DNA of 64,000 nucleotides. Source: Sphingomonadales bacterium (GTDB lineage Bacteria; Pseudomonadota; Alphaproteobacteria; Sphingomonadales; Sphingomonadaceae). Of the stretch, positions 1 to 14,729 are shown piece after piece. The notes under the pieces were generated by a model that did no database searches, was not told the DNA's origin, and was given only the letters and a program-made list of their open reading frames with translations. Every line of letters begins with the position of its first letter. Position 1 is the stretch's first letter. A program made the translations under genes and the position numbers. The stretch covers positions 62,001 to 126,000 of the forward strand of contig JAIXYT010000033.1 in assembly GCA_027490095.1 (NCBI GenBank), written 5' to 3'.

Positions 1-4
1 TGAA

Positions 5-934
5 ATGGTAAGCTCCATTGTCTGGCTCCCGGCCGCCTTGATGGCGGGGCTGCTTCAGGCCTGGCGATCTGCGCTGCAAACACGCATGCGCGACACGCTT
101 TCGCTGAACGCCGCCGGGCTCGTGCGCTACCTGTTCGGCTTGCCGGTGGCCTGTCTGCTGCTGTCCGTTTACATGATCGCCACCGGGAGTGGCGCGCTGC
201 CCCACTACGGGGCCGGCTTTCTGACAAAGTGCCTGCTGGCAGGCCTTGCGCAGATACTCGGGACAAACCTGCTCATCATGGCTTTCAGCTACCGCAATTT
301 CGTGGTGGGCACGGCATATGCGAAGACCGAGGCCGTACAAGCCGCACTTCTTGCGATGTTGTTTGCAGGAGAGCGTCTCGAGATGTTGACGTGGGCCGGC
401 ATTCTCGCCGGCGCCATCGGGATCATGGTGCTGTCGACCGGTGGGGAGCGTATGCGGTTGGCTGATTTTGGAAGAATCCTCGGGCAGCCAGCTGCGCGTT
501 GCGGGCTAGGAGCCGGCTTCTTCTATGCACTAACCGCGCTGGGCGTGCGGGAAGCATCGAGAGCACTTGACACATCCGATTACTTGATGGCAGCTTTGCT
601 AACTCTCGTTACGATCGTGATCATTCAGACAGTATTGCAGGGCAGCTACGTATTGATGACCGAGCGCCACCAGGTAAGGCGCATCTTTCTCAATTGGCGA
701 AACTCGAGCCAAGTCGGGGCGTTGGCCGCTCTGGGTTCGGCATGCTGGTTTGTAGGATTTTCAGTCGCACCAGTAGCGCTGGTGCGAATTGTCGGCCAAA
801 TTGAGGTTGTCTTCACCTTAGCATTTGGCCACTTCTATCTTGGCGAGCGGACATCACCAAGCGAGACTGCAGGCTTGCTGCTTGTGATACTTGGCGTGGT
901 TTTAGCCCTGTTTTCAGCACTGACACCGATGTAA
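5..934 (+). CDS. EamA/DMT-family membrane transporter
   Basis: The 309-residue product is almost entirely hydrophobic, with about ten predicted membrane segments in two halves, the size and layout of EamA (drug/metabolite transporter) permeases. A typical 'GERLEMLTWAGILAGAIGIMVL' type end of the first half is seen near residues 120-145 and 'LGERTSPSETAGLLLVILGV' ends the second half. The substrate cannot be read from sequence. The ATG lies four bases from the window edge, so a longer start upstream is possible. Base composition drops clearly in the second half compared with genes further right, and the gene is followed by a transposase remnant, suggesting recent acquisition. Confidence 0.8.
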   Translation: MVSSIVWLPAALMAGLLQAWRSALQTRMRDTLSLNAAGLVRYLFGLPVACLLLSVYMIATGSGALPHYGAGFLTKCLLAGLAQILGTNLLIMAFSYRNFVVGTAYAKTEAVQAALLAMLFAGERLEMLTWAGILAGAIGIMVLSTGGERMRLADFGRILGQPAARCGLGAGFFYALTALGVREASRALDTSDYLMAALLTLVTIVIIQTVLQGSYVLMTERHQVRRIFLNWRNSSQVGALAALGSACWFVGFSVAPVALVRIVGQIEVVFTLAFGHFYLGERTSPSETAGLLLVILGVVLALFSALTPM

Positions 935-1061
935 CTTGAACAATCGGCCCACCTTCCGGTGAAGCCAAGCATGTCGTGGGGATGGCTAGGAGCCCGCGGC
1001 GGCGTTCGCCGCCGAGATCGACTAGATAGGGTGATGGGACGGACGGCCCCTGCACCGGCGC

Positions 1062-1202
1062 GCTGTGGGCGCCAGGGCGGCGTCACCGGTTCTGGCGCTG
1101 CCCAACAAGGGCTGAAGCCTGAACTTCGTGCATGGTCAGATGGCGTCCGGGCGCCGGTTCCGTGTGCCGAACATCTTTGATGACTTGACGCGGGAATGCC
1201 TG
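1062..1202 (+). pseudogene. IS3-family transposase (orfB) remnant
   Basis: Translation in one frame gives AVGARA, then PVLALPNKG, a stop where Trp is expected, SLNFVHGQMASGRRFRV, then DDLTRECL. This follows the conserved start of the IS3-family rve catalytic domain (consensus of the type RWSLDFVxDQLxxGRRFRxLxVxDDxTREC). The TGA at 1113-1115 replaces the conserved Trp codon, the frame dies about 60 bases after REC, and no upstream orfA, downstream DDE half or terminal inverted repeats were found. It is a relic of an insertion. The family call is from motif recognition only. Confidence 0.6.
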
Positions 1203-1660
1203 ACCGGCGCTCGTCGCAAACGATGGATTCGTCCCAACGCCAGCCACAATGCCCAAAGCGACTAGGCATTTAACGAAAGGCGGGCATTTGAGAGCATTTT
1301 TGGGCAATGAAGCGCCTGCTGCGTCAGCGACTGCGGGCCCACCGACTGTTTCTCCCGGATGTCGGCTTTCCCATTTCGGGTGTCTTGAACCCGACAGGCA
1401 GAAAACGGCCCCAAAGCGGCCGCGAATGGGTGCGCCTTCCTGTGGGCCAGTCGATTGGCCGGGTCGCATTCTCATTAGCAGAGGCTCTTTGGCCTATGGC
1501 AAGCACACACGATACGACGGGCCGTCCAGTGGGCCCACGCGGAGAAGCAGGCTTCTGTGTCCCGTGCGCTGGTGACTGACACGGGCTGTCCCTCGCACGG
1601 ATTCGGTTTCTTCAGCCAATTGCTACAGAAGTCGTTGAGCCACGCATCAGGAGCAAATCT
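1203..1660. other. Non-coding stretch, no recognisable gene
   Basis: Open frames here are short, lack ribosome-binding sites and match nothing I recognise. Codon use is unlike the rest of the window. Together with the transposase scrap just before it, the stretch is best read as decayed mobile or duplicated DNA. Confidence 0.5.
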
Positions 1661-1740
1661 TGGGGCATAATTCGGGGCATCATTTCCATTATTCTAAGGA
1701 TTCAGTGATATATTTCTGAATGATAAACCTTAATGTAGAA
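1661..1740. other. AT-rich segment with direct and inverted repeats
   Basis: A strikingly AT-rich 80 bases in a GC-rich window. It holds a direct repeat of a nine-base unit (tggggcata at 1661-1669, ttcggggcat at 1671-1680) and an inverted repeat attcag/ctgaat at 1700-1705 and 1716-1721 around tgatatattt. Such a block could be a recombination or protein-binding site at the edge of the accessory DNA, but nothing shows which. Confidence 0.35.
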
Positions 1741-1790
1741 AGTCACCCTGTCCGCCGGTCTGTTCTGCTCGCGGCGAAGCTTCCGCAGGG

Positions 1791-1841
1791 GGCGGCCTGA
1801 CGGCCGGCGCGCGGTCGCGCTTGCGAACCCTGGCGGGTTCG
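1791..1841. repeat. Intergenic repeat copy A (35-base core plus hairpin)
   Basis: Bases 1791-1825 are identical at 34 of 35 positions to 36044-36078. The core is followed directly by a hairpin, cgaaccc/gggttcg at 1824-1830 and 1835-1841. The second copy has a hairpin at the same place with a different sequence but preserved pairing. It lies just beyond the stop codon of the minus-strand PrsW gene, so it may act as a transcript end or as a REP-like element. Confidence 0.65.
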
Positions 1842-1874
1842 AATTCGCTCTCGGCAAGTCCGTGTGTCGTCCGG

Positions 1875-2930
1875 CTACTGACCGATGTGCCGGTGGGCGT
1901 CGACTTCCAGCTCGTGCATCTTCCACAGATCATCGCGCGACACGTGGAGATGCTGGCGGACGGCGTGAACGGCCGAACGGCCCAGCGTTCGCTCGAGCGC
2001 GTGGAGACGGCGGAACTGCTCGTCCACGTCCGGGCCGAGATGCACGTGCGCATGCTCCTCCAGCGCCAGCAGGGTCTGGTCTGCGCGGGCAACGAGCTCG
2101 GCGTTCAGGAGGACATAGTCCATCAGCGCCTTGCCCCCCTCGGGCCCGAGCCGCGTTGCCAGTTCGGTGAGGGCGGCCCCGTCCGCGCTGTTGGCGAAGG
2201 CGCCCGAGCGGATGTCGGCCACCAGCCGGGCGTGCGTCACGCTGTCGATCGCCAGCCAGTGGTGCGCCATGCTTTCGCCGCGGAGGAAGATCAGGAACAG
2301 CGTCACGGGAACCAGCACGACCATCAGCGACATGGCGATCAGCGCCTGGTCGGGAAACTGGTTGAAGGCTGCATGGACGAGGATGGCGGCCAGCAGGCCG
2401 GGCAGGAAGGGCCGCACGCCGAAGCGGTAGCGTTCCTCGGACACGCGCAGGCGGGGCGCGAACAGCAGGTAGGAAAGCGACGCCATGATCGCGGTGGTTC
2501 CCCCGTGCATCAGGGCCGTTCCGAAGCCCCTGACCACCCAGACCGCGGTCTCGGCATCGGTGAACTGCCAGAGGAAGAAGGCGTTTTCCGCCATCGCGAA
2601 ACCCGTGCCGATGGCAAAGCCCATGATCGCGGCGTCGATCAGGTAGCCGATGCGGTTTCCAGCGAACAGCGCGATCACCAGAACGGCCTTGAGGCATTCT
2701 TCCAGGATCGGCGCCCAGAGGCGGGTGTAGAGACTGAACTGGATCGGGAAACTGTCGAGCACGCCACCGTTGAGCAGGAACCCGATTGCCGCAAGCCCCG
2801 CGCCGGCCGCGATCAGCGCCACCAGCGTCGACGGCGGCACCAGCTTGAAGGCGTCCAGCCGTTCATAGAGCAGCAGCACCGCGACGACAGGCACGATTGC
2901 GATCGCGATGTGGAGCAGCAGCTCGTGCAT
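1875..2930 (-). CDS. PrsW-family intramembrane metalloprotease
   Basis: The 351-residue protein has about eight hydrophobic segments in its first 215 residues and the PrsW/CPBP-like catalytic motifs inside them: E77-E78-x-x-K81, E115-N116 (in FAMAENAFF), H142 (ALMHGG) and H186 with N190 (ILVHAAFNQ). PrsW in Bacillus subtilis cleaves an anti-sigma factor within the membrane; no anti-sigma factor is seen here. A soluble C-terminal tail of about 135 residues, rich in His and Glu, is an addition beyond the membrane core. It is the last gene of a three-gene operon and starts four bases after the stop of the large secreted protein upstream, so its substrate may be one of those two partners (inference). 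Confidence 0.82.
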   Translation of the reverse strand: MHELLLHIAIAIVPVVAVLLLYERLDAFKLVPPSTLVALIAAGAGLAAIGFLLNGGVLDSFPIQFSLYTRLWAPILEECLKAVLVIALFAGNRIGYLIDAAIMGFAIGTGFAMAENAFFLWQFTDAETAVWVVRGFGTALMHGGTTAIMASLSYLLFAPRLRVSEERYRFGVRPFLPGLLAAILVHAAFNQFPDQALIAMSLMVVLVPVTLFLIFLRGESMAHHWLAIDSVTHARLVADIRSGAFANSADGAALTELATRLGPEGGKALMDYVLLNAELVARADQTLLALEEHAHVHLGPDVDEQFRRLHALERTLGRSAVHAVRQHLHVSRDDLWKMHELEVDAHRHIGQ

Positions 2931-2934
2931 CAGG

Positions 2935-5900
2935 CTACAGGATCTTCAGCGAGGCCATGAACTCCCCGTCGCGGTGCCGCCCGACCGGCAGGGCCGAGCC
3001 GTCGGGCAGGCGGATGGGGTCGCTGATCCGGAAGCCGCGCGCGTAGCCGATGGAAAAGGTCATCGGCAGGCGCAGCGCGAGCGTGAAATGGAAGTTGAGC
3101 TGGGCGCCCGCCGTTCCCAGCACCTGTTCCCCGCCACCCGGCGGGCGCGTGCCGAGTGCGCCGGCAAAAAGGCTTGTGCGCAGGTGCCTGAGATAGAGGC
3201 TGGACATCCCGACCTCTGCGAAGCGGACCGGCGGCAGGTTCCATTCGGCCATGCTCCTCGCGAAGGTGCGTGCGCTGATGCCGTTGATGGCATAGCCGGG
3301 AAAGCTGTCAAAGTCCCGATAGCGTTCGATCGAGCCGTCATCGACGACATTGTTGCCGAAGCCGCCGAAATAATAGGCGCTGAGAACGTTGCGACGGTCT
3401 CCGCCTGCTGCACCCAACGCGTTGTAGAGCCAGACGGAACTGTGGTTCCATCCGATGGGCAATCCGAAGCCGAGCCCCGCGCGGGCCTTGGGATAGGCCT
3501 TGCCCGAGGCGAGGTCGGGTTCGAAATCCAGGTTCCACAACAGCCCCTTTTCATGGTCCACGGCGCCAAGGGATTTGGTGGTGTTGGTGTAATCGAGGCC
3601 GACGGCGATGGAGGCGATGTTGCGGTCGGAGGCGGCGACATTCTGCGAGGCGGGCAGCGTATCCAGCCCGAAATAGCCACCGACCTCGGCCCGGAATTCC
3701 AGCTGCTCGGGTGGGGAATAGATCAGGCTGCGGCGGAACCCGGCGATGATCGCGTCGCCCTTGCGCGCTGTTTCGGTGGGGCCGAACAGGTCGTAGAAGC
3801 TGGCGAGATTGTGCCAGTAGCGGAAGCTCCATGACGGGGTCTTGGCCTGCAGGTCGACATGCAGCCGCTCGGGCGCGCGGTCGGTTGCAGCGGAAAAGCT
3901 GACGGTGGCGCTGAACTGGTTGAACTGCATCGGGTCCTCGAACACCGCATGCACACCGGCCGCGACATTGCCGAGATAGCCCTGCACGATCGGGAAGATG
4001 GTGCCGAGCGACAGCTCCTTCGAGGGGATGTAGCGGCCGATCGTCGGCGCCTCGGCGTCCAGGTTCACCTTGGCGGGCGTGCCAACCGTCCAGTCCTTCA
4101 CGACCCCGTGCTCGGCGGCGATCCGGGCGCCCAGGAACTGGATGTTGCCGAGGCTGTCGAGCGGTTTGGGGGTGAACCGCACGGGGGTGAAGCCCTGGCC
4201 CGTGAATTCCAGTGCAATGAGGCTGCCGTCGGCCTGCGGGATCGGGCGGAAGAGGCCCGTGTTGCTGTTGGAGACGGCCTCCCACTTGCCTGTCCCGATA
4301 TCGAGGCGGAAGATGTTGGAGACGCCGGTGTAATAGGCGCTGCCATAGAGCGACTTGCCGTCGGGCGCGAAGACGAACCCCTCGGGTGCGGAACTTCCCA
4401 GCGCAAGGGTCGCGACCGGCGTCTGCTCAACGCCTGCCAGCAGGTCCGCAATGCGCCAGACCTTCACCGACTGGTCGCCGTTCACCTCGCCGACCGAGGC
4501 GCTGAGCAGCGTGCCGTCGGGCGAGATGTCGAGATCATAGGGGATGCGGCCATAGGGAAAGGTGAGAATCTGCGTCCAGCCGGCGTAGGGCGGATCGATC
4601 CTGACCAGCGTCACGAAGCCGTTCAGGTGCCGCAGGCCCCACAGCGTCTTGTCTGCGGGGTTCAGCACGATGTCGCCGATCCGGCCCTGCTTGATCAGCG
4701 TCCGGGACTTGCCCGTCCGCGTGTCGATCGCGATCAGGTTGCGGAAACTGTAGTTGTCCGACGTGTAGAAGGCCGTGCTGCTGTCGGGATCATGGGCAAG
4801 GCTGGTGACGCGGTAGAGCATCGCGCCCTTCACATCCTCCAGATGGCGCACCTTGCCGTCGGCGAGCGACAGCACGCCCACATGACCGATGACGCCCGGA
4901 TAGCGGAAGGCGCCGACGAGATTGCCCTCGGCGTCCTGGAACAGGCGCGAGACGGAGCCGAGCGCACGGGGCGACAGCCGTTCGACGGGGGTGAGCGGAT
5001 ATGTGCCGACGCTTTCGAGGTTGGTCTGCTGGAACCCTTTTTCCCACTGGATCCACTGATCCCAAACCCGGTCCAGCGGCTCCCCGAAGACATGCTTGAA
5101 CTGGGCCGCGTAGTAGCCCTTGCTGCCCTCTCCGCGCTTCAACCATTCCAGCACCTTCTCGGGCGAGCGGCTGAGCGCGAGGTAGCTGAAGAAGCGGGTG
5201 CCGTAGAGATAGTCGTTCACGCCGACCTGGAAGTCGATCGCCGACCCCTCGCTTTCCAGCCCCAGCGGCGAATAGAAGCGTGCCTTGTCGCGGACCATCG
5301 CGCGGAACACCATCTCGTCATAGCCACCCTGCCCACGGCCGAAGCCGCCTGCCATCCACGTCTCCATGAAGACGGCAGCGCCTTCGAGGTACCAGCGCGG
5401 CACGTTCACCCTCGGTGTCGTCAGATAGTTGTAGAGGATCGTCTCCGGATGCTCCTGGATCGGCATGGGCTTGCCGCTGAACAGCTTGCGCCAGCGCGCA
5501 TCCGTTCGGTTCCACACGTCCATGTGCGCGACATGGACGGCCTCGTGGTTCATCAGGGTGAAGAAGCGCTCGCCGGCGCTGAAGGTCTCGAAGGTCTGGC
5601 TGAGCGGCGCGACATCGATCAAGATCGCGTTGTTGGGCGACGACCGCGCGCCCGCATTCCCATAGTCGGAAAAGTCCTTCAGCAGCACGGTGGTCTTTTC
5701 CCAGGGCGTCCAGTCGAACATGCGCTTCTGGAAGGCGAGGGAATTGAGGAAGCTGCGCGCGATGTAGGGCGTGAGGTAGGTCTGCGCCGGGTCGAAATAG
5801 AGCAGTCTCAGATCCGCCGTCTCGAGCTTGGCGAGATCGATCTCGGCGGTCGGCTTGTAGGGCTCATGCTCCTGTTCGGCCGGTGGTGGCATGGGCTTTT

Positions 5901-6048
5901 CGGCAGGGGCCGGGGACGGGGCCGCCTCCGGTTGCACGGGTGGTGCCGCGGGGATCTCCTGCGCGGCGAGGGATGCCGAACACAGGAGCGCAGTGGCGAG
6001 CCCGGCGAGGCCCGCCGCCGTTGCAGCCTTCAAGGATCGACCCGGCAA
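2935..6048 (-). CDS. Large secreted protein: HExxH peptidase-like region, propeller, possible barrel
   Basis: The 1037-residue product starts with a signal peptide (hydrophobic stretch at residues 9-29) and a Pro/Ala/Glu-rich linker. Residues 70-350 carry NHEAVHVAH with H168, E169 and H172, and E222 in WYLEGAA about 50 residues later, the spacing of gluzincin metallopeptidases. Residues 355-650 are repeating strands typical of a TolB/WD40-like propeller (SPDGTLLSAS, FAPDGKSLYGS). Residues 700-1037 alternate in a manner resembling outer-membrane beta strands. The start is a TTG at 6048; no ATG lies before residue 53. It follows the repeat-protein gene by 9 bases and precedes the PrsW gene by 4. 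Protease activity and barrel are inferences; no described protein is recognised. Confidence 0.7.
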   Translation of the reverse strand: MPGRSLKAATAAGLAGLATALLCSASLAAQEIPAAPPVQPEAAPSPAPAEKPMPPPAEQEHEPYKPTAEIDLAKLETADLRLLYFDPAQTYLTPYIARSFLNSLAFQKRMFDWTPWEKTTVLLKDFSDYGNAGARSSPNNAILIDVAPLSQTFETFSAGERFFTLMNHEAVHVAHMDVWNRTDARWRKLFSGKPMPIQEHPETILYNYLTTPRVNVPRWYLEGAAVFMETWMAGGFGRGQGGYDEMVFRAMVRDKARFYSPLGLESEGSAIDFQVGVNDYLYGTRFFSYLALSRSPEKVLEWLKRGEGSKGYYAAQFKHVFGEPLDRVWDQWIQWEKGFQQTNLESVGTYPLTPVERLSPRALGSVSRLFQDAEGNLVGAFRYPGVIGHVGVLSLADGKVRHLEDVKGAMLYRVTSLAHDPDSSTAFYTSDNYSFRNLIAIDTRTGKSRTLIKQGRIGDIVLNPADKTLWGLRHLNGFVTLVRIDPPYAGWTQILTFPYGRIPYDLDISPDGTLLSASVGEVNGDQSVKVWRIADLLAGVEQTPVATLALGSSAPEGFVFAPDGKSLYGSAYYTGVSNIFRLDIGTGKWEAVSNSNTGLFRPIPQADGSLIALEFTGQGFTPVRFTPKPLDSLGNIQFLGARIAAEHGVVKDWTVGTPAKVNLDAEAPTIGRYIPSKELSLGTIFPIVQGYLGNVAAGVHAVFEDPMQFNQFSATVSFSAATDRAPERLHVDLQAKTPSWSFRYWHNLASFYDLFGPTETARKGDAIIAGFRRSLIYSPPEQLEFRAEVGGYFGLDTLPASQNVAASDRNIASIAVGLDYTNTTKSLGAVDHEKGLLWNLDFEPDLASGKAYPKARAGLGFGLPIGWNHSSVWLYNALGAAGGDRRNVLSAYYFGGFGNNVVDDGSIERYRDFDSFPGYAINGISARTFARSMAEWNLPPVRFAEVGMSSLYLRHLRTSLFAGALGTRPPGGGEQVLGTAGAQLNFHFTLALRLPMTFSIGYARGFRISDPIRLPDGSALPVGRHRDGEFMASLKIL

Positions 6049-6057
6049 CCGAAGGGC

Positions 6058-7854
6058 TTAGTTTGTGCGGATCGCCCTTGCGAAGCCGGGGTCGGCCAGC
6101 ATGGCGCTGAACGCCGGGCTGGAGGCCAGTGCGGCAAAGGCCGGCTGGGCGGCCGCCTTCTGGAAGGCATCGGCGTTGGTCGCCAGCGCCGAAAGCGCCT
6201 GCGGATTGCGTGCGAGCGCCGCGAACGCCTGCGGATTGGCCGACATGGCCGCAAAGGCCTGCGGATGGGCTGCCATCACCGACATCGCCTCGGCCGCACG
6301 ACCGGAGGCGGCAAGATTGGCCTCGACACCCTTGGCACGAAGCGACGCCGCAGCCTCGGCCGCGCGGGCTGCCGAGGCGGCTGCCCTGGCGTTGAAGGCC
6401 GATGCGCTCTGCGCTGCGGCCGACAGGGCGGCCGGGTTGCGGGCAAGCGCTGCGAAGGCGGCCTCGTTCTGCGCCATCGATGCGATTGCCGACGCGTCGG
6501 CCGCACGGCGGAACAGCGCTGCGTCGACAGCCAGTGCCTTGAAGGCCTCGGCGTTGCGCGCCATCGCGTCGAAGGCGGCGGCGTCCGCCCGCAGCGCGGC
6601 CATCGCGCTTGCGTCGCGGGCAAGCGCTTCGAAGGCGGCTGCATCCGCCGACATGGCGGCAACAGCCGCCGGATTTGCGGCGGCTGCCTGGAACGCAGCC
6701 GGGGCCTTGGCGAAGGATGCAAACGCCTGCGGGTTCCGCGCCATTGCGGCAAAGGCCTGCGGGTGGCGGGCAAGCGCCTCGAAGGCGCTGGCATGGCTGG
6801 CGAGCGCCGACATGGCGGCGGGCTGCCGGGCCATTGCGTCGAAGGCGGCTGCCTGGCGGGCCATCGCATCCGCCGTTGCGGCAACGGCATCGGCGCTTGC
6901 GGCAGACGAGATCGCCTGAACGCGGGCGGCCGATGCGGCCCTGGCGAAGGCGGCTGAATCAAGGGCTGCCGCCGAAAGGGCCTGTGGCGACCTGGCGAGC
7001 GCTTCGAAGGCGCTTGCCTGCCGCGCCATGGCGGCGAGCGCCTCAGCGTCGAAGGCGGCCTTGAAGGCGGCACTGTCTGCCGCGAGCGCCCGGAACGCCT
7101 CGGCATTGCGGGCCATGGTGTCGAACATGGCGGCATCGGCCCTGAGCGCGGCCATGGCGCTTGCATCCCTGGCGAGCGCGCGGAAGGCGGCTGCATCCGC
7201 CGCCATGGCGGCAACCGCTGCCGGATTGGCGGCAGCCGCCTCGAAGGCGGCGGGGTTCTTCGCATAGGCTTCGAACGCCTTGGCGTTGCGCGCCATGGCA
7301 TCGAGGGCCTGCGGATGGCGCGCGAGCGCCTCGAACGAGCTGGCGTGCGTGGCCGCGGCCGCAAAGGCTGCAGGTTGCGCCGCCATCGCCTCGAAGGCTG
7401 CCGGGTTTGCCGCCATGGCCGCAAACGCCTGGGCATTTTCGGCCTGCGCGGCTGCGGCGCCGGCCGAGAGGGCTGCAAACGCCTTCGGATCCTTCGCCAG
7501 CGCCACGAAAGCCTGCGGGTTCTTCGCCATTGCGGCCAGCGCCTCGGGATTGCGGGCGAGCGCCATGAAGGCCGGATCAGCGGCCAGCGCGCGGAACGAC
7601 GGGTTCTTCACCATCAGTTCGAAGGCGTCGGTCTGCATCAGCATCGGCACACTGGTGTCGCCCAGGCCCACGTCCGCCGACGTCACCTGCGGCGCGCGAT
7701 ACCGTTCGGCCGGGGCAATCGTGCCGCTGCCCAGCAGGCCCGGCCCGTCACCCTGGCTGCCCACCACATAGGCAACGCCCGCGATTGCAACTGCCATGAT
7801 GCTGATCGTCATGAACCTGGACTTGCTCAGGTTCTGAGCCACGACGGTTTCCAT
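6058..7854 (-). CDS. Membrane-anchored decapeptide-repeat protein, unknown function
   Basis: After a short basic N-terminus there is one membrane segment (residues 15-33), then a linker, then from residue 78 to the end nearly continuous ten-residue units of the form F-x-A-[LM]-A-x-[ND]-P-x-A. I count about 45 units; Phe at position 1 may be replaced by Leu, Met, Val or Ile. Ala makes up close to half of the protein. Units at both ends are nine residues long. A 16-unit block (residues 154-302) is repeated at 338-486 in exact register, including one nine-residue unit at the same place. The protein likely forms an alpha-helical repeat rod in the periplasm. ATG at 7854 with gggggac upstream. First gene of the operon with the peptidase-like protein and PrsW protease. 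I do not recognise the family. Confidence 0.75.
   Translation of the reverse strand: METVVAQNLSKSRFMTISIMAVAIAGVAYVVGSQGDGPGLLGSGTIAPAERYRAPQVTSADVGLGDTSVPMLMQTDAFELMVKNPSFRALAADPAFMALARNPEALAAMAKNPQAFVALAKDPKAFAALSAGAAAAQAENAQAFAAMAANPAAFEAMAAQPAAFAAAATHASSFEALARHPQALDAMARNAKAFEAYAKNPAAFEAAAANPAAVAAMAADAAAFRALARDASAMAALRADAAMFDTMARNAEAFRALAADSAAFKAAFDAEALAAMARQASAFEALARSPQALSAAALDSAAFARAASAARVQAISSAASADAVAATADAMARQAAAFDAMARQPAAMSALASHASAFEALARHPQAFAAMARNPQAFASFAKAPAAFQAAAANPAAVAAMSADAAAFEALARDASAMAALRADAAAFDAMARNAEAFKALAVDAALFRRAADASAIASMAQNEAAFAALARNPAALSAAAQSASAFNARAAASAARAAEAAASLRAKGVEANLAASGRAAEAMSVMAAHPQAFAAMSANPQAFAALARNPQALSALATNADAFQKAAAQPAFAALASSPAFSAMLADPGFARAIRTN
6397..6843 (-). 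repeat. Second copy of 16-unit block in decapeptide-repeat gene
   Basis: Codes for residues 338-486 of the repeat protein. Unit for unit it mirrors residues 154-302, including VAAM-ADAAA, LARDASAMAALRADAA and MARNAEAF runs and a nine-residue unit at position 12. The two copies are offset by 184 codons (552 bases), and each is followed by an Ala-rich segment without clear units. Confidence 0.8.
6949..7395 (-). repeat. First copy of 16-unit block in decapeptide-repeat gene
   Basis: Codes for residues 154-302. See the partner block at 6397-6843. The preserved register implies one duplication of about 552 bases after the smaller 30-base units had already formed. Confidence 0.8.
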
Positions 7855-8156
7855 GAAGTCCCCCCTGCCATTTCCCCCGGGAGGCCGGTCACTGCTCCGG
7901 CACCCATACTGTCACAATACCAGTTTCGCGGCATCATTTACAGCGCGAAAAGCATTGGAGGGCAGCTTGCGCCGGATGGCCTTCTTGCAGCGCCGGCGGA
8001 CCCGGGCCGATCGGGCCCGGCACGCTCTGGCGAAGCTGCCTTGCGGCAGCGCGCCGGCGCCGCGAACAGGGGATGAGGCGACAGCAGGCTGGCCGCCGCA
8101 TCACCCGGTGGCAAAAGGGGATTCACGGGCGCGCCTGCTTGTGGCAGGACAGCGGC
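7855..8156. other. Divergent intergenic region, no gene seen
   Basis: About 300 bases between two divergently read genes. It should hold promoters for the repeat-protein operon (minus) and the transglycosylase operon (plus), but I see no box pair good enough to call. No small frame with a ribosome-binding site was found. Confidence 0.4.
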
Positions 8157-9182
8157 ATGCGATTTTTCCTCATCGCGGCTGCCCTTTTGGCCGCAGCGCC
8201 CGCGGGTGCCGACGAAATCCCGCCGGCTGACGGGTTTCCGATCTGGCTCGCCAACTACAAGGCCGGCGCCCAGGCGCGCGGGCTGAAGCCGGAGTGGCTG
8301 GAGGCGGCCCTGTCGGGGGCCAGCTATTCGGAGCGTGTCGTCGCTCTGGACCGGAACCAGCCGGACGACAGTGGCAAGCGCAATGTGTTCGCCGACTATC
8401 TGGCACGGCAATTGACCCAGCAGCGGATCGACGACGGGCTGGAACGCGCCGCGCAAGAGCGGGATCTGCTGCTGCGCATCTCGGCGCAGACGGGTGTGCC
8501 GGCCGAGATCATCGTTGCAATCTGGGGCATGGAAACCAGCTATGGCCGGGTGATGGGCGGGTTCGACCTGCCGTCGGCGATCGGCAGCCTCGCCTATGAC
8601 GGCCGGCGCGAGGCGCTGTTCACGCGGGAGCTGGATGCGCTGGTGCGCATGGTGGGCGAAAAGGGTGTGCGCCGCGACCAGCTGACAGGAAGCTGGGCGG
8701 GTGCCTTCGGGCAATCCCAGTTCCTGCCGAGCTCGTATCTTGCCCATGCCGCCGACGGCGACGGCGATGGGCGGGCCGACATCTGGAGCTCGCGCGCCGA
8801 CACCTTCGCCTCGATCGGGACCTATCTGAAGGACCGTGGCTGGAAGCCGGGCGTGCCCTGGGGGTTCCGTGTGGGTGTGCCGCAGGGCTTCGACCGGGCG
8901 GGTGTTGCGAACCCGGTGAAGCCGACGCAGTGCATCCGCCCGTTGGAGCGGCATTCGCGCTGGCTGCCGGCCGCCGAGTGGCGGGCAAAGGGCTTCCTGC
9001 CGCTGAACGCGCTGTGGCCGGCGGATGATGTGGAGATGTCGCTGGTGGAGCCCGACGGGCCGGGCGAAGGCGCCTATCTGACCACGCGCAGCTACCGCGC
9101 GATCCTCGAGTATAATTGCTCGAACTTCTATGCGCTGTCGGTCGCGCTGCTGGGGAATGCCGTTGCGCCTGCGGTGCGGTAA
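8157..9182 (+). CDS. Lytic murein transglycosylase, MltB/SLT_2 type
   Basis: The product cuts the glycan strands of peptidoglycan in the periplasm. From the ATG at 8157 (ggcagga upstream) it is 341 residues with a signal peptide ending near residue 18 (LLAAAPAGA). The SLT_2 core is clear: IWGMETSYG with catalytic-type E126, then GSWAGAFGQSQFLPSSYLAHA and DGDGDGRADIW. An upstream in-frame start at 8073 would add a non-signal-like Arg-rich lead and is rejected. No peptidoglycan-binding domain follows. Its last 26 bases overlap rlpA, and rlpA overlaps tmk, so the three genes form one transcript. Confidence 0.87.
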   Translation: MRFFLIAAALLAAAPAGADEIPPADGFPIWLANYKAGAQARGLKPEWLEAALSGASYSERVVALDRNQPDDSGKRNVFADYLARQLTQQRIDDGLERAAQERDLLLRISAQTGVPAEIIVAIWGMETSYGRVMGGFDLPSAIGSLAYDGRREALFTRELDALVRMVGEKGVRRDQLTGSWAGAFGQSQFLPSSYLAHAADGDGDGRADIWSSRADTFASIGTYLKDRGWKPGVPWGFRVGVPQGFDRAGVANPVKPTQCIRPLERHSRWLPAAEWRAKGFLPLNALWPADDVEMSLVEPDGPGEGAYLTTRSYRAILEYNCSNFYALSVALLGNAVAPAVR

Positions 9183-9990
9183 GCGACAGGCCTTGGGTCT
9201 GGGATTGAGCCTGCTTCTGGCCGCCTGCGCCTCGCAGCCCAAGCCGAAGGCGGTGTCGACGGCGCCGGCTTCCAAGCCCGGCGTGCCGGGGGTGAAGATC
9301 GGCAAGCCCTACCAGGTGTTCGGGGTGACCTATTATCCCGAGGACGACCGGGGCTATGATCGCACCGGGATCGCCAGCTGGTACGGGCCGACCTTCCACG
9401 AGAAGGCGACCGCGAACGGCGAGATCTACAACCAGGACGATGTGACGGCGGCGCACAAGACCCTGCCGATGCCGAGCTGGGTGGAGGTGACGAACCTGGA
9501 CAATGGGCGGCAGCTGGTTGTGCGGATCAACGACCGCGGGCCGTTCGTGGAGGGTCGGATCATCGACCTGTCACGCCGGTCTGCGCAGTTGCTGGGGGTG
9601 GACCGGCCGGGGCTTGCGCGGGTGCGGGTGAAGCGGGTGTTCCCCGACGGGGATTGGGCGCGCGACACGGCGCCCCAGCCGCGCCTGGTGTCGGCGCCTG
9701 CGCCGGTGGCGGCCCCTGTCGCGGCTGCGCCGGTCTTGGCGGCGGCGGCCCTTCCGGCGCCGGCCGCTGCTGCGCCGGGTACGCGCTTCGTCCAGGTGGC
9801 GGCCCTGTCCGACGAGGCGCGCGCCCGGGCGCTGGCCTCGGTGCTGGGCGACTATGGGCCGGCCTCTGCCATGCCGACGGGTACGGGGCTGTGGCGGGTC
9901 CGGATCGGGCCTGTGGCCGAGGCGCAGGCGCGCATGCTGGTCGATAATGTGCGGGCTGCCGGCTATACCGATGCGCGGGTGGTGCCATGA
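9157..9990 (+). CDS. rlpA: RlpA-family septal ring lipoprotein with SPOR domain
   Basis: A 277-residue lipoprotein: the signal ends in LLLAACAS with lipidation Cys24. The double-psi beta-barrel follows (GIASWYGPTFHEKATANGE, then VRINDRGPF and IIDLSRRSA), as in RlpA enzymes that cut naked glycan strands at the division septum. An Ala/Pro linker leads to a C-terminal SPOR domain (from about residue 205, FVQVAALSDEARA) that binds denuded peptidoglycan. The ATG at 9157 is chosen because it gives a compact lipoprotein signal. It overlaps the transglycosylase stop by 26 bases and the tmk start by 4. In many relatives a D,D-carboxypeptidase gene lies between rlpA and tmk; none is here. Confidence 0.87.
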   Translation: MPLRLRCGKRQALGLGLSLLLAACASQPKPKAVSTAPASKPGVPGVKIGKPYQVFGVTYYPEDDRGYDRTGIASWYGPTFHEKATANGEIYNQDDVTAAHKTLPMPSWVEVTNLDNGRQLVVRINDRGPFVEGRIIDLSRRSAQLLGVDRPGLARVRVKRVFPDGDWARDTAPQPRLVSAPAPVAAPVAAAPVLAAAALPAPAAAAPGTRFVQVAALSDEARARALASVLGDYGPASAMPTGTGLWRVRIGPVAEAQARMLVDNVRAAGYTDARVVP

Positions 9991-10622
9991 GCCGCGGGCG
10001 GTTCATCGCCTTCGAGGGGGGGGAGGGCGCCGGCAAGAGCACCCAGATCGCCCGGCTGGCCGAGGCGCTGCGGGCGCGGGGCGAGGGCGTCGTTGTGACG
10101 CGCGAACCCGGCGGCACGCCCGGCGCCGAGGAGATCCGCGCGCTGTTCGTGCGAGGGGAAACGGCGCGCTGGACGGTCGAGACCGATGTGCTGCTGGTGT
10201 GCGCCGCGCGAGCCGACCATGTGGCACGGCTGATCCGGCCGGCGCTGGAGGCTGGAAGCACGGTGCTGTGCGACCGCTTCATCCATTCGACGCTGGCCTA
10301 TCAGGGGCATGGCAAGGGCGTTGCCATGGCGCAGCTGCTGGCGCTGCATGCCTTTGCGACGGGCGACCTGTGGCCCGACCTGGTGCTGTGGCTGGACCTG
10401 CCGGTAGAGCTCGGGCTTTCCCGCTCGACCAAGCGGGCTGCGGCCCAGGAGGCCGATCTTCCCCAGGAGCAGCGCTTCGAGGCGCTCGGGCTGGCGTATC
10501 ATGAAAAGGTGCGCGCCGGGTTTGCCAGCCTTGCGGCCGAGGATGGGCGGATCGTGCGGATCGACGCGACGCAGGATATCGACGGCGTGGCGGCCGCTAT
10601 TGCGGCTGCGGTGCTGCGCTGA
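9987..10622 (+). CDS. tmk: Thymidylate kinase
   Basis: Phosphorylates dTMP to dTDP for DNA synthesis. At 211 residues it is standard length. The P-loop GGEGAGKST is at residues 11-19, the nucleotide/substrate motif CDRFIHSTLAYQG near 95, and a LID-like basic stretch RSTKRAA near 150. The start overlaps the rlpA stop (ATGA). The usual partner holB does not follow; instead a convergent hydroxylase gene overlaps the last 26 bases. Confidence 0.95.
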   Translation: MSRGRFIAFEGGEGAGKSTQIARLAEALRARGEGVVVTREPGGTPGAEEIRALFVRGETARWTVETDVLLVCAARADHVARLIRPALEAGSTVLCDRFIHSTLAYQGHGKGVAMAQLLALHAFATGDLWPDLVLWLDLPVELGLSRSTKRAAAQEADLPQEQRFEALGLAYHEKVRAGFASLAAEDGRIVRIDATQDIDGVAAAIAAAVLR

Positions 10623-11379
10623 CGCGGGTTTTCGCGGCGAGCAGGTCGTCGGACAGGCCACGGTCGGTGCTGCAGAGCTTGTCCCAGAAACGGAAATAGA
10701 GGCCGTAGTTGGACTGGTAGCGCTCGTGATGGACGTGGTGATGTGATGCTGAAATCACGTGCCGGCCAAACCAGCCTTCGACCCAGCTTCTGGGGAAGAT
10801 TTCCCAGCCCATATGGTTGGTGACGCCGAAGAAGGTGGCGATCAGCAGCACGGCCATCAGGGCGTAGGCGTGGATCGGGATGATGAAGGTGAGGGCCGGG
10901 ATCAGCCAGGCGGCCGAGATCGCTTCCCAGGGGTGGAAGGCCATGGCGGCCCAGGCGGTGGGCGGGCGGCTTTCGTGGTGGACGGCGTGGGCCGCGCGGA
11001 ACAGCGCCGGCCAGTGGTGCATGGCGCGGTGGGTCCAGTAGAACCAGGCGTCGTGGGCTGCGAGGAACAGGAAGATCGAGACGGGGATCCACCAGAGCGG
11101 CATGGCCGAGACATCGGTGTAGATGCGCGTAAGCCCCTGCGTCACCCAGAGGTGGGCGACGATGCCCGAGGGCAGGCCATAGATGACGGCCGAGAGGAGC
11201 GACCAGCTGATTTCGCGCCGGATCTGCTTTGCGAGGCGGGCGGCCTTCTTGGGATCGGTGGGCGCATAGACATCGGGGCGGACCTTTCGCGAGGTCCAGG
11301 CGAAAAGGCCCGAGATGGCGAGGTAGCGGGCCGCCACGATCAGGCACATGGCGAGCGCGGTGATGATGAGGGCCGTCAT
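10597..11379 (-). CDS. Sterol desaturase / fatty-acid hydroxylase family membrane di-iron enzyme
   Basis: A 260-residue membrane protein with the eight-histidine di-iron pattern: HDAWFYWTHRAMHH (H109, H117, H121, H122), HAVHH (131-135) and HHHVHHERYQ near residue 217. Such enzymes add hydroxyl groups to lipids, sterols or carotenoids. It lies downstream of the ATP-grasp and P450 genes on the same strand and close to the carotenoid genes. A CrtG-like 2,2'-hydroxylase of carotenoid rings is therefore a candidate role, but this is inference from context and fold. Its 3' end overlaps tmk by 26 bases. Confidence 0.8.
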   Translation of the reverse strand: MTALIITALAMCLIVAARYLAISGLFAWTSRKVRPDVYAPTDPKKAARLAKQIRREISWSLLSAVIYGLPSGIVAHLWVTQGLTRIYTDVSAMPLWWIPVSIFLFLAAHDAWFYWTHRAMHHWPALFRAAHAVHHESRPPTAWAAMAFHPWEAISAAWLIPALTFIIPIHAYALMAVLLIATFFGVTNHMGWEIFPRSWVEGWFGRHVISASHHHVHHERYQSNYGLYFRFWDKLCSTDRGLSDDLLAAKTRVSAAPQPQ

Positions 11380-11434
11380 GGCGCTGTCCTAGCTGGGTGG
11401 CGACGAACCGACTAGGGGGTCGCGCCGTCGCACC

Positions 11435-12547
11435 TCACCCGTTCCAATCGATGTCGCGCGTCGCGATCTCGCCGAAGCTGAGGCCGGTCTGGCGGGCGGC
11501 CTGGATGATCGGCCAGGCCGTGTAGGTCATTGTCAGGAAGGGCAGCGGGTCGGCCGGGCTCCAACTGACGTCCGGGGTGGCGAAGAGGTCGCGTGCGGCC
11601 CGGCCGCCGCCCCTGCGCCAGAAGCGCGACTGCACCTCGGTGAGGACGGCGTAGAATTGCTGGCGCTCGCGTTCGGGGCGGAGCGGGATGGGCGACAGGC
11701 TGGCGGGATCGAGGAGGGCGTGGGCGAGCGGCGCGGGCTCGACGAAATGGATGCCGGAGGTGACGCGCGGGTTGCACTCGATGGCGAGCGGTCGGTCGCC
11801 GTCCAGGATGAAATCGAAGCTGAGGAAGCCTTCGTAGCCGGTGGCAGCGATGAAGTGGGCGATCCAGGCCTCGATGGCTGGGTCCTGCACCTGTGCGAAG
11901 CGGACGGCGACGGTGCCCGACATCAGCGTGCCCTGGTAGATGGCGGTGACGAGGCTTCGGCCACCGCGGGCCAGGGTAAAGCTGGAGAGGTGGGGGCCGC
12001 CGACGAAGCGCTGGACGAGGTCGGCAGGCGAGGGCGCCTCCAGCGGGCCGGCATCGCGGATGCGGATGTCGCGGCCGCCGCAGCTGAGGATGGGCTTCAC
12101 GACATGGCCGCCGGATCCGGCGATGGCGGCGGCTTCCGGTGTGTCGGCGCGTGCGCTGTCGGGGATCGCGGCGCCGATGCGCTTGGCCGTTTCGATGAAG
12201 CCGAGCTTGGAGTGCAAGCCCACCAATGTTTCGCCGGGCGGCGCGGCGAGGCGGGTGCCGGTGGGCAGGCGGCCGTGGAGGAAGCCGACATGCATGCTTT
12301 CCTCGGAGACGGGACAGACGAGGTCGACCTTCTCGCGTTCGATGATGGCCAGAAGGTCTTCGATGTAGCCCGCATGGTCTGTCGCGGGCGGGCGGGTAAC
12401 GAAGCTGGCGGCGACCGTGTTTGAGGCACCCGTCAGGTGGCGCTGCATCGGTTCGGCAATCAGCACGCGGGCGCCAGCCGCGTGAAAGCCGCGGGCGAGG
12501 TCGAGCGCCTTGGGGAGACGGCCAAGGGTCAAGAGGACGGTCGTCAT
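11435..12547 (-). CDS. ATP-grasp enzyme, carbamoyl-phosphate-synthase-like
   Basis: A 370-residue single ATP-grasp protein. An N-terminal Rossmann-like part (TTVLLTLGRLPKALDLARGF) is followed by the ATP-grasp core: GHVVKPILSCGGRDIRI, then FDFILDGDRPLAIECNPR with the metal-binding Glu-x-Asn, and TSGIHFV. These enzymes join a carboxylate to an amine, thiol or other nucleophile. The substrate is unknown. The ATG overlaps the P450 stop (ATGA at 12544-12547), so the two are translationally coupled; the hydroxylase gene follows after 55 bases. A longer open frame reaching 13927 runs antisense-like through the P450 gene and is rejected. Confidence 0.75.
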   Translation of the reverse strand: MTTVLLTLGRLPKALDLARGFHAAGARVLIAEPMQRHLTGASNTVAASFVTRPPATDHAGYIEDLLAIIEREKVDLVCPVSEESMHVGFLHGRLPTGTRLAAPPGETLVGLHSKLGFIETAKRIGAAIPDSARADTPEAAAIAGSGGHVVKPILSCGGRDIRIRDAGPLEAPSPADLVQRFVGGPHLSSFTLARGGRSLVTAIYQGTLMSGTVAVRFAQVQDPAIEAWIAHFIAATGYEGFLSFDFILDGDRPLAIECNPRVTSGIHFVEPAPLAHALLDPASLSPIPLRPERERQQFYAVLTEVQSRFWRRGGGRAARDLFATPDVSWSPADPLPFLTMTYTAWPIIQAARQTGLSFGEIATRDIDWNG

Positions 12548-13920
12548 GCGGGGCGGATGCGGACCAGTATCTGCTCGGCCGGGCGGGTTGTGAGCCGGGC
12601 TGCCGGTTGCACCTTGTCGGCGTCGAGCACCTCGAAATCCCAGCGGCGGAACAACTCTGCGAGGATGAGGATCGCCTCGGTGGTGGCGAAGGCCGCGCCG
12701 GCGCAGACGCGGGGGCCGGTGCCGAAGGGGATGTAGGTGCCCGTCTTGATCGCAGCCTCGCGGGTGCCGGTGAAGCGGTCCGGATCGAAGACGTCGGGCT
12801 GGTCCCAGTGGCCCTGGTGGCGGTGCATTGTCCAGGGCGAGATCATCAACATCGCGCCACGCTTCATCTTCACGCCGCCGACAACCGTGTCCCGGATGGC
12901 GACGCGCGGCAGGAAGGTGATGGGCGGATAGAGGCGCAGCGTCTCGCGGAAGATGTTGCGCACGAAGGGCATGCGCTTCGCCATCTCCATCGTGATCGGG
13001 CCGTTGCCGGCGACCTCCTGCACCTCGGCGCGGAGGCGCGCGCGGAGCTCGGGGCGCTGGGCGAGGATGAAGACCGCCCAGATGAGGGCGGACGCGCTTG
13101 TCTCGTGGCCGGCGAGGAAGAGGACGCCGAGCTGGTCGATCACCTCCTCGCGGGTGAAGGCGGCGCCGGTCTCGGGGTCTCGTGCGGCCAGAATGGCAGA
13201 CGCCATGTCGTCGCCGCCCGCAGGTCGATTGTCCAGCAGGTCGGCAAGCAGGCGGCGGATTGCAGCGCAGGCCTCCAGCACTTCCGGCTTCTGCGGCACG
13301 GGCTTGAAGGGCGGGTCGAAGATCAGCCGTCCGAGCTCCACCTGGGCGACCGAGCGCTCGAACACATGGAAGGCCGCGAAGGCCTCGGCGCTGGCGCCGC
13401 CGTCCAGCGGGCTGCCGAACACGGCGCGGCAGATCACGTCGGCGGTCAGGTCCGACATGGCGGCGTCGAGCGAGAAGGCCTCGCCGCTGCCAGCCAGGCC
13501 CTCGAGCCGTTGCTGGAAGGCATCCACTGCCCCCGTCATGAACCGATAGCCGGCCGCCACCCGAACGGCGGAGAAGCTGGGATCGATCATCCGGCGCTGC
13601 TGCCGCCAGCGCGGCCCTGACGAGGTGAAGATGCTGTCGCCGATCAAGGGCTCCAGCGCGCCCGTCATAAGGTCGGACTTGGGGTAGACGTCGTCGCTGT
13701 CGACCAGCACGGCGCGGGCGGCCTCGGGATCGTTGATGATCCAGGTGGTGCGGCGCGACCAGCCGAGCTGGCCGATCCGCATCCGGTAGGCGCTTGCCGG
13801 CAGAAGCGTGAGGAGGTTTCCGTCGCCGTTCCATGCGGTGCGGATGAGGCCCGCGAGCGGCGAAAGCGAGCGGGGGCGGGGGGGCGTATAGGGCGTCAGA
13901 GGGAGGGGGGCGAAGGCCAT
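12544..13920 (-). CDS. Cytochrome P450
   Basis: A 458-residue heme monooxygenase with all family marks: I-helix AGHET at 270-274, ExxR at 326-329 (FRETLR), and the heme loop FGTGPRVCAG with the axial Cys at 406. The ATG at 13920 is chosen because upstream codons are not P450-like and overlap the divergent promoter region. No fused reductase is present and no ferredoxin gene is in the window. It reads away from the carotenoid operon across an 80-base gap and is coupled to the ATP-grasp gene. Carotenoid or fatty-acid oxidation would fit the neighbourhood, but the substrate is unknown. Confidence 0.9.
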   Translation of the reverse strand: MAFAPLPLTPYTPPRPRSLSPLAGLIRTAWNGDGNLLTLLPASAYRMRIGQLGWSRRTTWIINDPEAARAVLVDSDDVYPKSDLMTGALEPLIGDSIFTSSGPRWRQQRRMIDPSFSAVRVAAGYRFMTGAVDAFQQRLEGLAGSGEAFSLDAAMSDLTADVICRAVFGSPLDGGASAEAFAAFHVFERSVAQVELGRLIFDPPFKPVPQKPEVLEACAAIRRLLADLLDNRPAGGDDMASAILAARDPETGAAFTREEVIDQLGVLFLAGHETSASALIWAVFILAQRPELRARLRAEVQEVAGNGPITMEMAKRMPFVRNIFRETLRLYPPITFLPRVAIRDTVVGGVKMKRGAMLMISPWTMHRHQGHWDQPDVFDPDRFTGTREAAIKTGTYIPFGTGPRVCAGAAFATTEAILILAELFRRWDFEVLDADKVQPAARLTTRPAEQILVRIRPA

Positions 13921-14000
13921 GCGGCATTCATGCGCGCCCGTGCGGCCGGAAGGCAATTGCAATCTGCGGGTGGGCAGCGCAGGGTCTGACAACCGAGGGG

Positions 14001-14729
14001 ATGATGACGACCTATCAGTGGTTTCAGATGCTTGTGGTGCTGCACGTGGCAACGGGCGCCGTCGGGCTCATTCTCTTCTGGGTGCCGGTGCTGGGCCGCA
14101 AGGGCGGGCCGGCGCACAGGCGCTTCGGCCGGATCTTCAACCAGCTGATGTTCGCGACCGCCGCGACCGCGATCCTGATGGCACTGCTTAACCTTCGTGA
14201 CCCGCTGGGCACGCACCCGCACATCGCGGACCCGGAATTCACCCGGAACATCTTCGGCTGGATGATGCTGTACCTGGGGGTGCTGACGGTGAACCTGACG
14301 GCCTATGGCTGGAACGCGCTGCTGAACCGGCGCGACCATGGTGCGAACCGCAGCGTGCCGAACCTGGCCTTGCAGCTGATCCTGTTCCTCCTGTCGCTGA
14401 ACACGGCGGCTCGTGGGGTCATGGTCGGGCAGCCGCTGATGGTGGGCATCTCCACCATCGGCTTTGCGACGGTCGGCACCAATCTCTGGTTCATGTTCAC
14501 TGCGCGCCCGCGCCCTGTCTATGCGCTCCGGGAACATGTGAAGGGCCTGATCGGCACGGGCATTTCGGTCTACACGGCCTTCCTGGCGTTCGGTGCGGTT
14601 CGCTTCGTGCCCGAACTGGCGCTGCATCCGGGGCTGTGGGCGATCCCGCTCGTGACCGGGCTTGCGACCATCATCTGGCATTGGGCGCAGCTCAATCGGG
14701 CGCACGGCAGCCGGAAGTCGGTCGCCTGA
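14001..14729 (+). CDS. DUF2306-like integral membrane protein
   Basis: A 242-residue protein with about seven membrane segments. The start resembles DUF2306 proteins: LHVATGAVGLILFW followed by KGGPAHRRFGRIFN. Function is unknown. gagggg lies just before the tandem ATGs at 14001 and 14004. It is the first gene of the carotenoid operon, and its stop overlaps the likely start of the CrtD-like gene. Confidence 0.65.
   Translation: MMTTYQWFQMLVVLHVATGAVGLILFWVPVLGRKGGPAHRRFGRIFNQLMFATAATAILMALLNLRDPLGTHPHIADPEFTRNIFGWMMLYLGVLTVNLTAYGWNALLNRRDHGANRSVPNLALQLILFLLSLNTAARGVMVGQPLMVGISTIGFATVGTNLWFMFTARPRPVYALREHVKGLIGTGISVYTAFLAFGAVRFVPELALHPGLWAIPLVTGLATIIWHWAQLNRAHGSRKSVA

Follow-up and report, generated by a model that had tools for sequence, protein, structure and literature searches.

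In a 64,000-nt stretch of DNA from a Sphingomonadales bacterium (GCA_027490095.1, contig JAIXYT010000033.1, positions 62,001–126,000 of the forward strand; hereafter the window), we analysed three adjacent minus-strand genes, which we call rep, big, and prsW. Their products are a single-pass membrane protein with a repeat tail, a large exported protein predicted to join a peptidase-like domain to a propeller and an outer-membrane-type barrel, and a PrsW-family intramembrane protease, respectively. By analogy, this trio would best be read as an outer-membrane extension of a known scheme, in which a PrsW-type protease carries out the regulated proteolysis of an anti-sigma-like protein. We consider it somewhat probable that the three genes encode an envelope-spanning module for regulated proteolysis that is controlled by PrsW and links the outer membrane to such a protein.

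The genes run head to tail in the order rep, big, prsW; 9 bases separate the first two and 4 bases the last two, as the initial annotation of the window had described (Table 1). In a neighbourhood survey of the best 80 of 230 relatives, chosen by Big alone, the three genes stayed together. A PrsW domain was encoded within 600 bases downstream of big, on the same strand, in 73 loci; five of the remaining seven were contig ends, and two (L054 and L059) lacked it. Where 2.4 kb or more of upstream sequence was available (48 loci), Rep could be recognised in 47, L068 being the exception, and one locus (L083) had an extra open reading frame (ORF) between rep and big. Separate profile searches with Big, the Rep N-terminus, and PrsW in 385 genomes of the class gave strong matches for all three in the same five genomes (G000, G152, G286, G366, and G454). 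Beyond these five, Big had three weak matches to short propeller stretches (E 2.4e-4 to 8.6e-4), PrsW had three weak matches (E 4.6e-7 to 9.6e-4), and the Rep N-terminus had none. Within the window's family, big was present in three of 149 genomes including its own, and the other two both carried the trio. No relative of Big was found in the plasmid collection searched.

Distant relatives of Big with the peptidase-propeller region were also found (L116–L124; eight full ORFs of 942–976 aa and one cut). Near these, neither PrsW nor a linked extracytoplasmic function (ECF) sigma factor was detected at E 1e-3 in any of the nine stretches with wider flanks, some of which were short. Because distant peptidase/propeller relatives occur without PrsW or a linked ECF gene, PrsW-linked Big looks like a special subfamily.

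The predicted structure of Big, built with 54 aligned sequences, had a mean predicted local distance difference test score (pLDDT) of 87.7 and a predicted template modelling score (pTM) of 0.85. It comprised a helical peptidase-like domain (residues 72–347), propeller strands (364–625), and a barrel (669–1036). TolB was the top fold match in the PDB (E 3.5e-8), and the barrel matched BamA 7tt3_A (E 7.4e-6). In a Z-score structure comparison, whose list was dominated by propeller matches so that the remaining parts were barely probed, the propeller aligned with TolB 1crz (Z 22.7, 238 aligned residues, root-mean-square deviation (rmsd) 2.6, model range 353–607), and Big aligned with BamA 8xnb_A (Z 20.3, 288 aligned residues, rmsd 3.9, model range 192–1035). 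In profile searches of the kind suggested earlier for the 1037-residue protein, Pfam Omp85 exceeded its cut-off (24 bits) in two of five distant homologues scanned (L117, 33.6 bits; L119, 28.2 bits), whereas the window protein itself had no Omp85 match at E ≤ 1, and peptidase families matched only weakly and only in other members. Among further homologues, L060, L064, and L068 had weak PF19143 matches, and L081 and L027 had no match. In sequence searches of the PDB, profiles of the peptidase and barrel parts returned nothing significant, and the single Big and PrsW proteins returned nothing. WD40, TolB, and MCPVI family matches were all below cut-off in the window protein and were set aside. 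Judging from the model, Big is a peptidase-like domain followed by a TolB-like propeller and a BamA-like barrel, which substantiates the propeller and possible barrel proposed in the initial annotation.

The HEAVH...E site noted in the same annotation was present and conserved, with H168, E169, H172, and E222 invariant in all 81 aligned proteins. This arrangement, HExxH with a distal Glu, is the gluzincin-type pattern of peptidase clan MA. Weak matches to PF04450 (four of 34 family members; best E 6.8e-4) and PF13485 (three of 34; best E 8.2e-4) were also obtained, possibly from four distant members, and the window member had neither. The peptidase label is used because of the invariant residues and these weak matches in other members.

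PrsW matched PF13367 with 63 bits (cut-off 23.5), in agreement with its earlier assignment as an intramembrane protease. Residues E77, E78, E115, H142, H186, and N190 were kept in all 74 aligned proteins and fit the Glu/His pattern of the family, which we take to be EE, E, H, and HxxxN. As its score against the NF033739 equivalog model (20.2 bits) was far under the cut-off of 225, we regard it as a family member and not as a Bacillus-type equivalog.

Rep has a single N-terminal membrane helix, evident from the sequence and modelled as a helix with a pLDDT of about 37; the anchor proposed earlier is therefore apparent in the sequence, with low confidence in the model. Its constant part is short and consists of the membrane helix, about 10 residues (8–17 in 51 relatives), and then the motif GTIAPAERY. 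After the motif, most Rep proteins have LGD and LMQTD; L067, L076, and L082 are without LMQTD. The claimed decapeptide repeat was confirmed: for the tail of the window protein, the only one given a shuffle control, the lag-10 identity was 0.38, against a maximum of 0.30 over lags 3–30 in 500 shuffles. Among 51 Rep tails, the strongest lag (3–13) was 10 in 32, 9 in 15, 8 in two, and 12 in two, and periodicity by identity was weak in several (0.17–0.19 in L024, L041, L081, and L085). The repeats (L007–L086) differed in period and unit by lineage, with units such as NPQAFAAMA, DQNFQAALG, SNAA, and RGDARGDG, and the membrane-proximal part remained fixed. Tail length past the motif ranged from 64 to 523 residues, counted after a 30-residue offset. 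Rep of L067 measures 154 aa, and its repeats are RGDARGDG-like.

The structural model of Rep from the window consisted of short helices one after another (mean pLDDT 74.0, pTM 0.59), with pLDDT above 90 near residues 161–260 and 351–440. It had no match in the PDB (best Foldseek E 0.62; no entry at Z 2 among 128 chains), which says little because of the pTM of 0.59. Two family matches, to YlbE (above cut-off, with no stretch passing alone) and to STI1, fell on low-complexity repeats and were not used.

The evidence that ties the trio to signalling came from the upstream genes of its relatives. An ECF sigma gene lay just upstream of the trio in 18 of the 80 loci. Within the set of 48 loci whose upstream sequence reached 2.4 kb, it was found in 16, all among the 18 that are not of the alphaproteobacterial type, usually together with partner-switch genes; the 32 without it were 30 alphaproteobacterial-type loci, L067, and L068. 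L060 shows the full row, which encodes a GAF-SpoIIE phosphatase, a HATPase kinase, a STAS protein, an ECF sigma factor, an anti-sigma-like protein, Rep, Big, and PrsW. Eighteen loci had kinase and STAS genes, and the phosphatase was a separate ORF in 14. Among culturable carriers, Rhizobacter sp. Root404 has the form with sigma genes and Sphingomonas edaphi the window-like form. For the L060 ECF protein, the only one scanned, the best NCBIfam model was SigW (128 bits; cut-off 209). The anti-sigma label was given mainly because of the position after the ECF gene, the length, and the membrane helix; Pfam returned nothing for these proteins, or a sub-threshold zf-HC2 match.

Rep and the anti-sigma-like proteins have a similar membrane-proximal motif. 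In L081, L085, L076, L082, L064, and L066, one open frame ran from an anti-sigma-like N-terminus through a linker and the membrane helix to the Rep motif and the tail; four of these were found by search, and L064 and L066, missed by the anti-sigma search, were added by eye. Each fused frame also had, as judged by eye, an internal ATG following a purine-rich, Shine–Dalgarno-like run at the expected start of a separate Rep, and the six frames may be dual-start genes. For the one pair L081 and L085, dN/dS was 0.22 in the N-terminus plus linker, 0.47 in the linker, and 0.21 in the remainder, as expected if the whole frame is translated. In 12 other loci, the anti-sigma-like gene was separate and preceded rep. 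By rule, the pattern xG[TA][MIVL] followed the membrane helix in 11 of these 12 separate proteins, compared with 22 of 322 control ORFs, which were picked mechanically with a hydropathy limit that would miss some anti-sigmas. For the twelfth protein (L072), which the automatic helix rule did not pick up, the motif was assigned by eye. The fused and separate loci are related, and their counts are not independent. A common segment would be expected of two substrates of the same protease, or of a Rep that arose from the outer half of an anti-sigma.

We also placed the loci in a tree of 82 sequences (79 family members and three distant ones; L075, cut at 773 aa, was excluded). The alphaproteobacterial-type sequences formed a group of 42 with a short branch and an SH-like approximate likelihood ratio test support of 97. 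No sigma locus was found among the 29 judged in this group, and the sigma loci were placed around it. The simplest reading, though not proved, is that the sigma part was lost in the alphaproteobacterial line. The window's Big grouped with Caulobacteraceae sequences (support 90–94). Because of this grouping, and because only one of six genomes of the window's genus has big, the trio was likely acquired by horizontal transfer. One protein from a record titled Gemmatimonadaceae (L082) fell among betaproteobacterial ones.

In Bacillus, PrsW cuts the single-pass protein RsiW, the anti-sigma of SigW (PMC5358783, PMC10202637). Because of this precedent, PrsW of the trio would be expected to cut Rep, or a Rep-like anti-sigma, beside the membrane. 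The earlier proposal that PrsW cuts the anchor of Rep has indirect support in this precedent, in the six fused frames, and in the 12 separate anti-sigma-like genes. Big would reside in the outer membrane through its Omp85-like barrel, with the peptidase and propeller facing the periplasm, and Rep would be fixed to the inner membrane, its repeat tail extending into the periplasm. A disturbance reported by the outer-membrane part would prompt inner-membrane PrsW to cut Rep beside the membrane, near GTIAPAERY. In beta/gamma-type relatives, the same membrane-juxtamembrane segment lies within or beside the ECF anti-sigma, and the cut would free the sigma factor; the PP2C/kinase/STAS set may add a cytoplasmic input. 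In the sigma-free form of the window, the product of the cut might be free Rep, or the effect might pass through a partner that is not linked to the trio. The initial annotation had proposed an envelope-spanning system, and what stands of this is that the parts suggest a span from the inner to the outer membrane and that the trio is linked; the localisation, topology, cut, signal, and output of the module are what we infer from them, and a complex of the three proteins is putative.

A more specific version has, in our estimate, somewhat less than an even chance. Here, the Omp85 barrel-propeller-metallopeptidase protein of didermal bacteria would govern cleavage by PrsW. The substrate would be a transmembrane protein with a repeat tail that serves as the outer half of an anti-sigma and that, in some lineages, is translated from a second start within one and the same gene. 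The sigma output would have been lost in alphaproteobacteria, and the core of outer-membrane protein, tether, and protease would have been kept with a new output.

Several observations weigh against the proposed module. Sigma genes were absent in all 30 alphaproteobacterial-type loci with at least 2.4 kb upstream, which are the window's kind (L075 was classed as such by identity). L067 retains the kinase and STAS genes, and no sigma gene was found there. L068 has big and prsW without a recognisable rep or sigma gene, and L054 and L059 lack an adjacent prsW despite more than 1.3 kb of downstream DNA. Anti-sigma profile matches were weak and below cut-off (best E 2.8e-5), and the mechanical choice of control ORFs in the motif comparison counts on the same side. 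There was also no clear signal of an ECF-type promoter in the 250 bases upstream of rep at 33 loci without a detected ECF gene, the window included: a two-part pattern occurred in four of the 33 regions, compared with 1.3 in mononucleotide shuffles, and a single GGAAC in seven, compared with 7.2.

An ECF sigma gene is absent at the window locus, and we do not file the window as a complete member of an ECF sigma/anti-sigma regulated intramembrane proteolysis system. The absence of sigma, anti-sigma, and partner-switch genes from the locus is also why they were not visible to the initial annotation. In the window's genome, the best match to the linked ECF group scored 86 bits and was not adjacent, compared with 264–314 bits for group members. 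Regarding the regions upstream of rep, the commonest heptamers contained TTGAC (up to eight of 33 regions each), resembling a housekeeping −35 box. At L067 (7130–9821), the phosphatase and kinase profiles matched one ORF, with STAS next to it.

The sigma-free trio of all 30 alphaproteobacterial-type loci would also suit a role in export. As part of sorting, PrsW would cut Rep loose from the inner membrane, the Omp85-like protein would pass or display it, the peptidase would trim it, and the sigma genes of relatives would only control expression. Omp85-type proteins include translocases (PMC4104836), and a fast-changing repeat tail is consistent with a surface-exposed product. We regard this as unlikely, since Rep is in frame with an anti-sigma-like domain in six loci, which would be odd for a cargo, and the motif recurs in separate anti-sigma-like proteins. 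Less likely still, Rep would be a tether that joins the two membranes through Big, with PrsW only clearing broken or unassembled copies. The modelled helical-repeat tail, the outer-membrane-type partner, and the variation of the tail beside a constant membrane-proximal part are all linker-like, but tails of 64 to 523 residues fit a fixed span poorly, and the linkage to ECF sigma and anti-sigma-like genes in relatives indicates signalling. It is very improbable that PrsW and Big have other substrates for which Rep competes as a decoy through its juxtamembrane motif, setting a threshold: 12 loci have the motif in both Rep and a separate anti-sigma-like protein and the internal ATG seen by eye in six fused frames could give a Rep-only product, but alphaproteobacterial-type loci have no linked anti-sigma partner, and no further protein bearing the Rep N-terminus was found in the window's genome (best match E 0.33 over 41 residues).

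The gene next to rep in the window (8073–9182) is divergent and, by eye, lytic transglycosylase-like; more minus-strand ORFs follow at 11435–14052, including ATP-grasp-like and cytochrome P450-like ones (also by eye). A tRNA scan of the whole window and an Rfam scan of positions 1–12000 found nothing. At the mltB-like loci of two congeners (L160 and L161), a tRNA-Ser(tga) gene lies directly upstream of the transglycosylase-like gene and overlaps the end of an ORF that is serine-recombinase-like by eye; in a third congener (L162), tRNA-Ser is about 4 kb away. The window carries the trio in this slot, without a tRNA. The slot upstream of the transglycosylase-like gene is possibly an integration hot spot.

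Table 1. Positions of the three genes and of their features in the window
Feature	Position	Strand	Description or basis
rep	6058..7854	-	598 aa, single-pass membrane protein, decapeptide-repeat tail
Rep membrane helix, residues 12–33	7756..7821	-	Sequence; low-confidence helix in model
Rep juxtamembrane motif GTIAPAERY, residues 44–52	7699..7725	-	Comparison with relatives
Rep conserved LMQTDAFE, residues 72–79	7618..7641	-	Comparison with relatives
Rep repeat tail, period 10	6061..7605	-	Lag analysis; short helices in model
big	2935..6048	-	1037 aa, TTG start, exported peptidase-propeller-barrel protein
Big peptidase-like domain, residues 72–347	5008..5835	-	Model; weak PF04450/PF13485 in some relatives, none in window member
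Big HEAVH, residues 168–172	5533..5547	-	H168, E169, H172 invariant 81/81
Big distal Glu 222	5383..5385	-	Invariant 81/81
Big TolB-like propeller, residues 350–630	4159..5001	-	Fold matches
Big BamA/Omp85-like barrel, residues 669–1036	2941..4044	-	Model, fold matches, homologues
prsW	1875..2930	-	351 aa, PrsW-family intramembrane protease; PF13367
PrsW E77-E78	2697..2702	-	74/74
PrsW E115-N116	2583..2588	-	E115 74/74, N116 73/74
PrsW H142	2505..2507	-	74/74
PrsW H186xxxN190	2361..2375	-	Both 74/74

Parts of the proposed module resemble known systems. TamA–TamB combines an inner-membrane-anchored periplasmic protein with an Omp85-type outer-membrane barrel, and the pairing of Rep and Big would be alike in this respect; the Rep tail differs in being made of helical repeats, and a protease completes the trio. 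In the RpoE–RseA–DegS/RseP pathway, proteolysis relays the state of the outer membrane to an anti-sigma factor, as proposed here, but through other proteases and sensors and without a repeat protein. The beta/gamma-type relatives are closest to SigW–RsiW–PrsW of Bacillus subtilis, as they pair a PrsW-family protease with an ECF factor whose best model is SigW and with a single-pass anti-sigma-like protein. Unlike that system, the trio adds an outer-membrane-type peptidase-propeller-barrel protein and a repeat-tailed protein, and the relatives add partner-switch genes; moreover, the window's PrsW is far under the equivalog cut-off, and its locus is without sigma genes.

The architecture of a TolB-like propeller N-terminal to an Omp85-type barrel has already been described as the WD40-Omp85 subfamily (PMC4104836), and Big has this arrangement. 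It differs in the HExxH...E domain in front, which is not part of the description in the available text of that paper, and in its fixed partners Rep and PrsW; the 'Metallo' Omp85 subfamily of the same text has PF00149, a different domain. The genes that encode a SpoIIE phosphatase, a HATPase kinase, and a STAS protein upstream of the trio in relatives resemble SiaABC-type PP2C-kinase-STAS switching as presented in the available text of PMC9239204, but they form one gene row with PrsW and an ECF sigma/anti-sigma-like pair, and are absent at the window locus. Our literature search, which covered few subscription papers, found no description of a system with these parts, in keeping with the initial annotation.

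In the available texts, PrsW and the proteolysis of anti-sigma factors are described for Gram-positive bacteria (PMC5358783, PMC10202637). Here, a PrsW protein is tied to an outer-membrane-type protein with a peptidase-like domain and a propeller, which suggests a way, open to testing, in which events at the outer membrane could reach transcription, as well as a role for the WD40-Omp85-type architecture. Rep serves as an example of a periplasmic tail that is swapped for unlike repeats while the membrane-proximal part stays constant. The trio and its relatives also suggest which proteins PrsW might cut in didermal bacteria, and by which motif it might recognise them.

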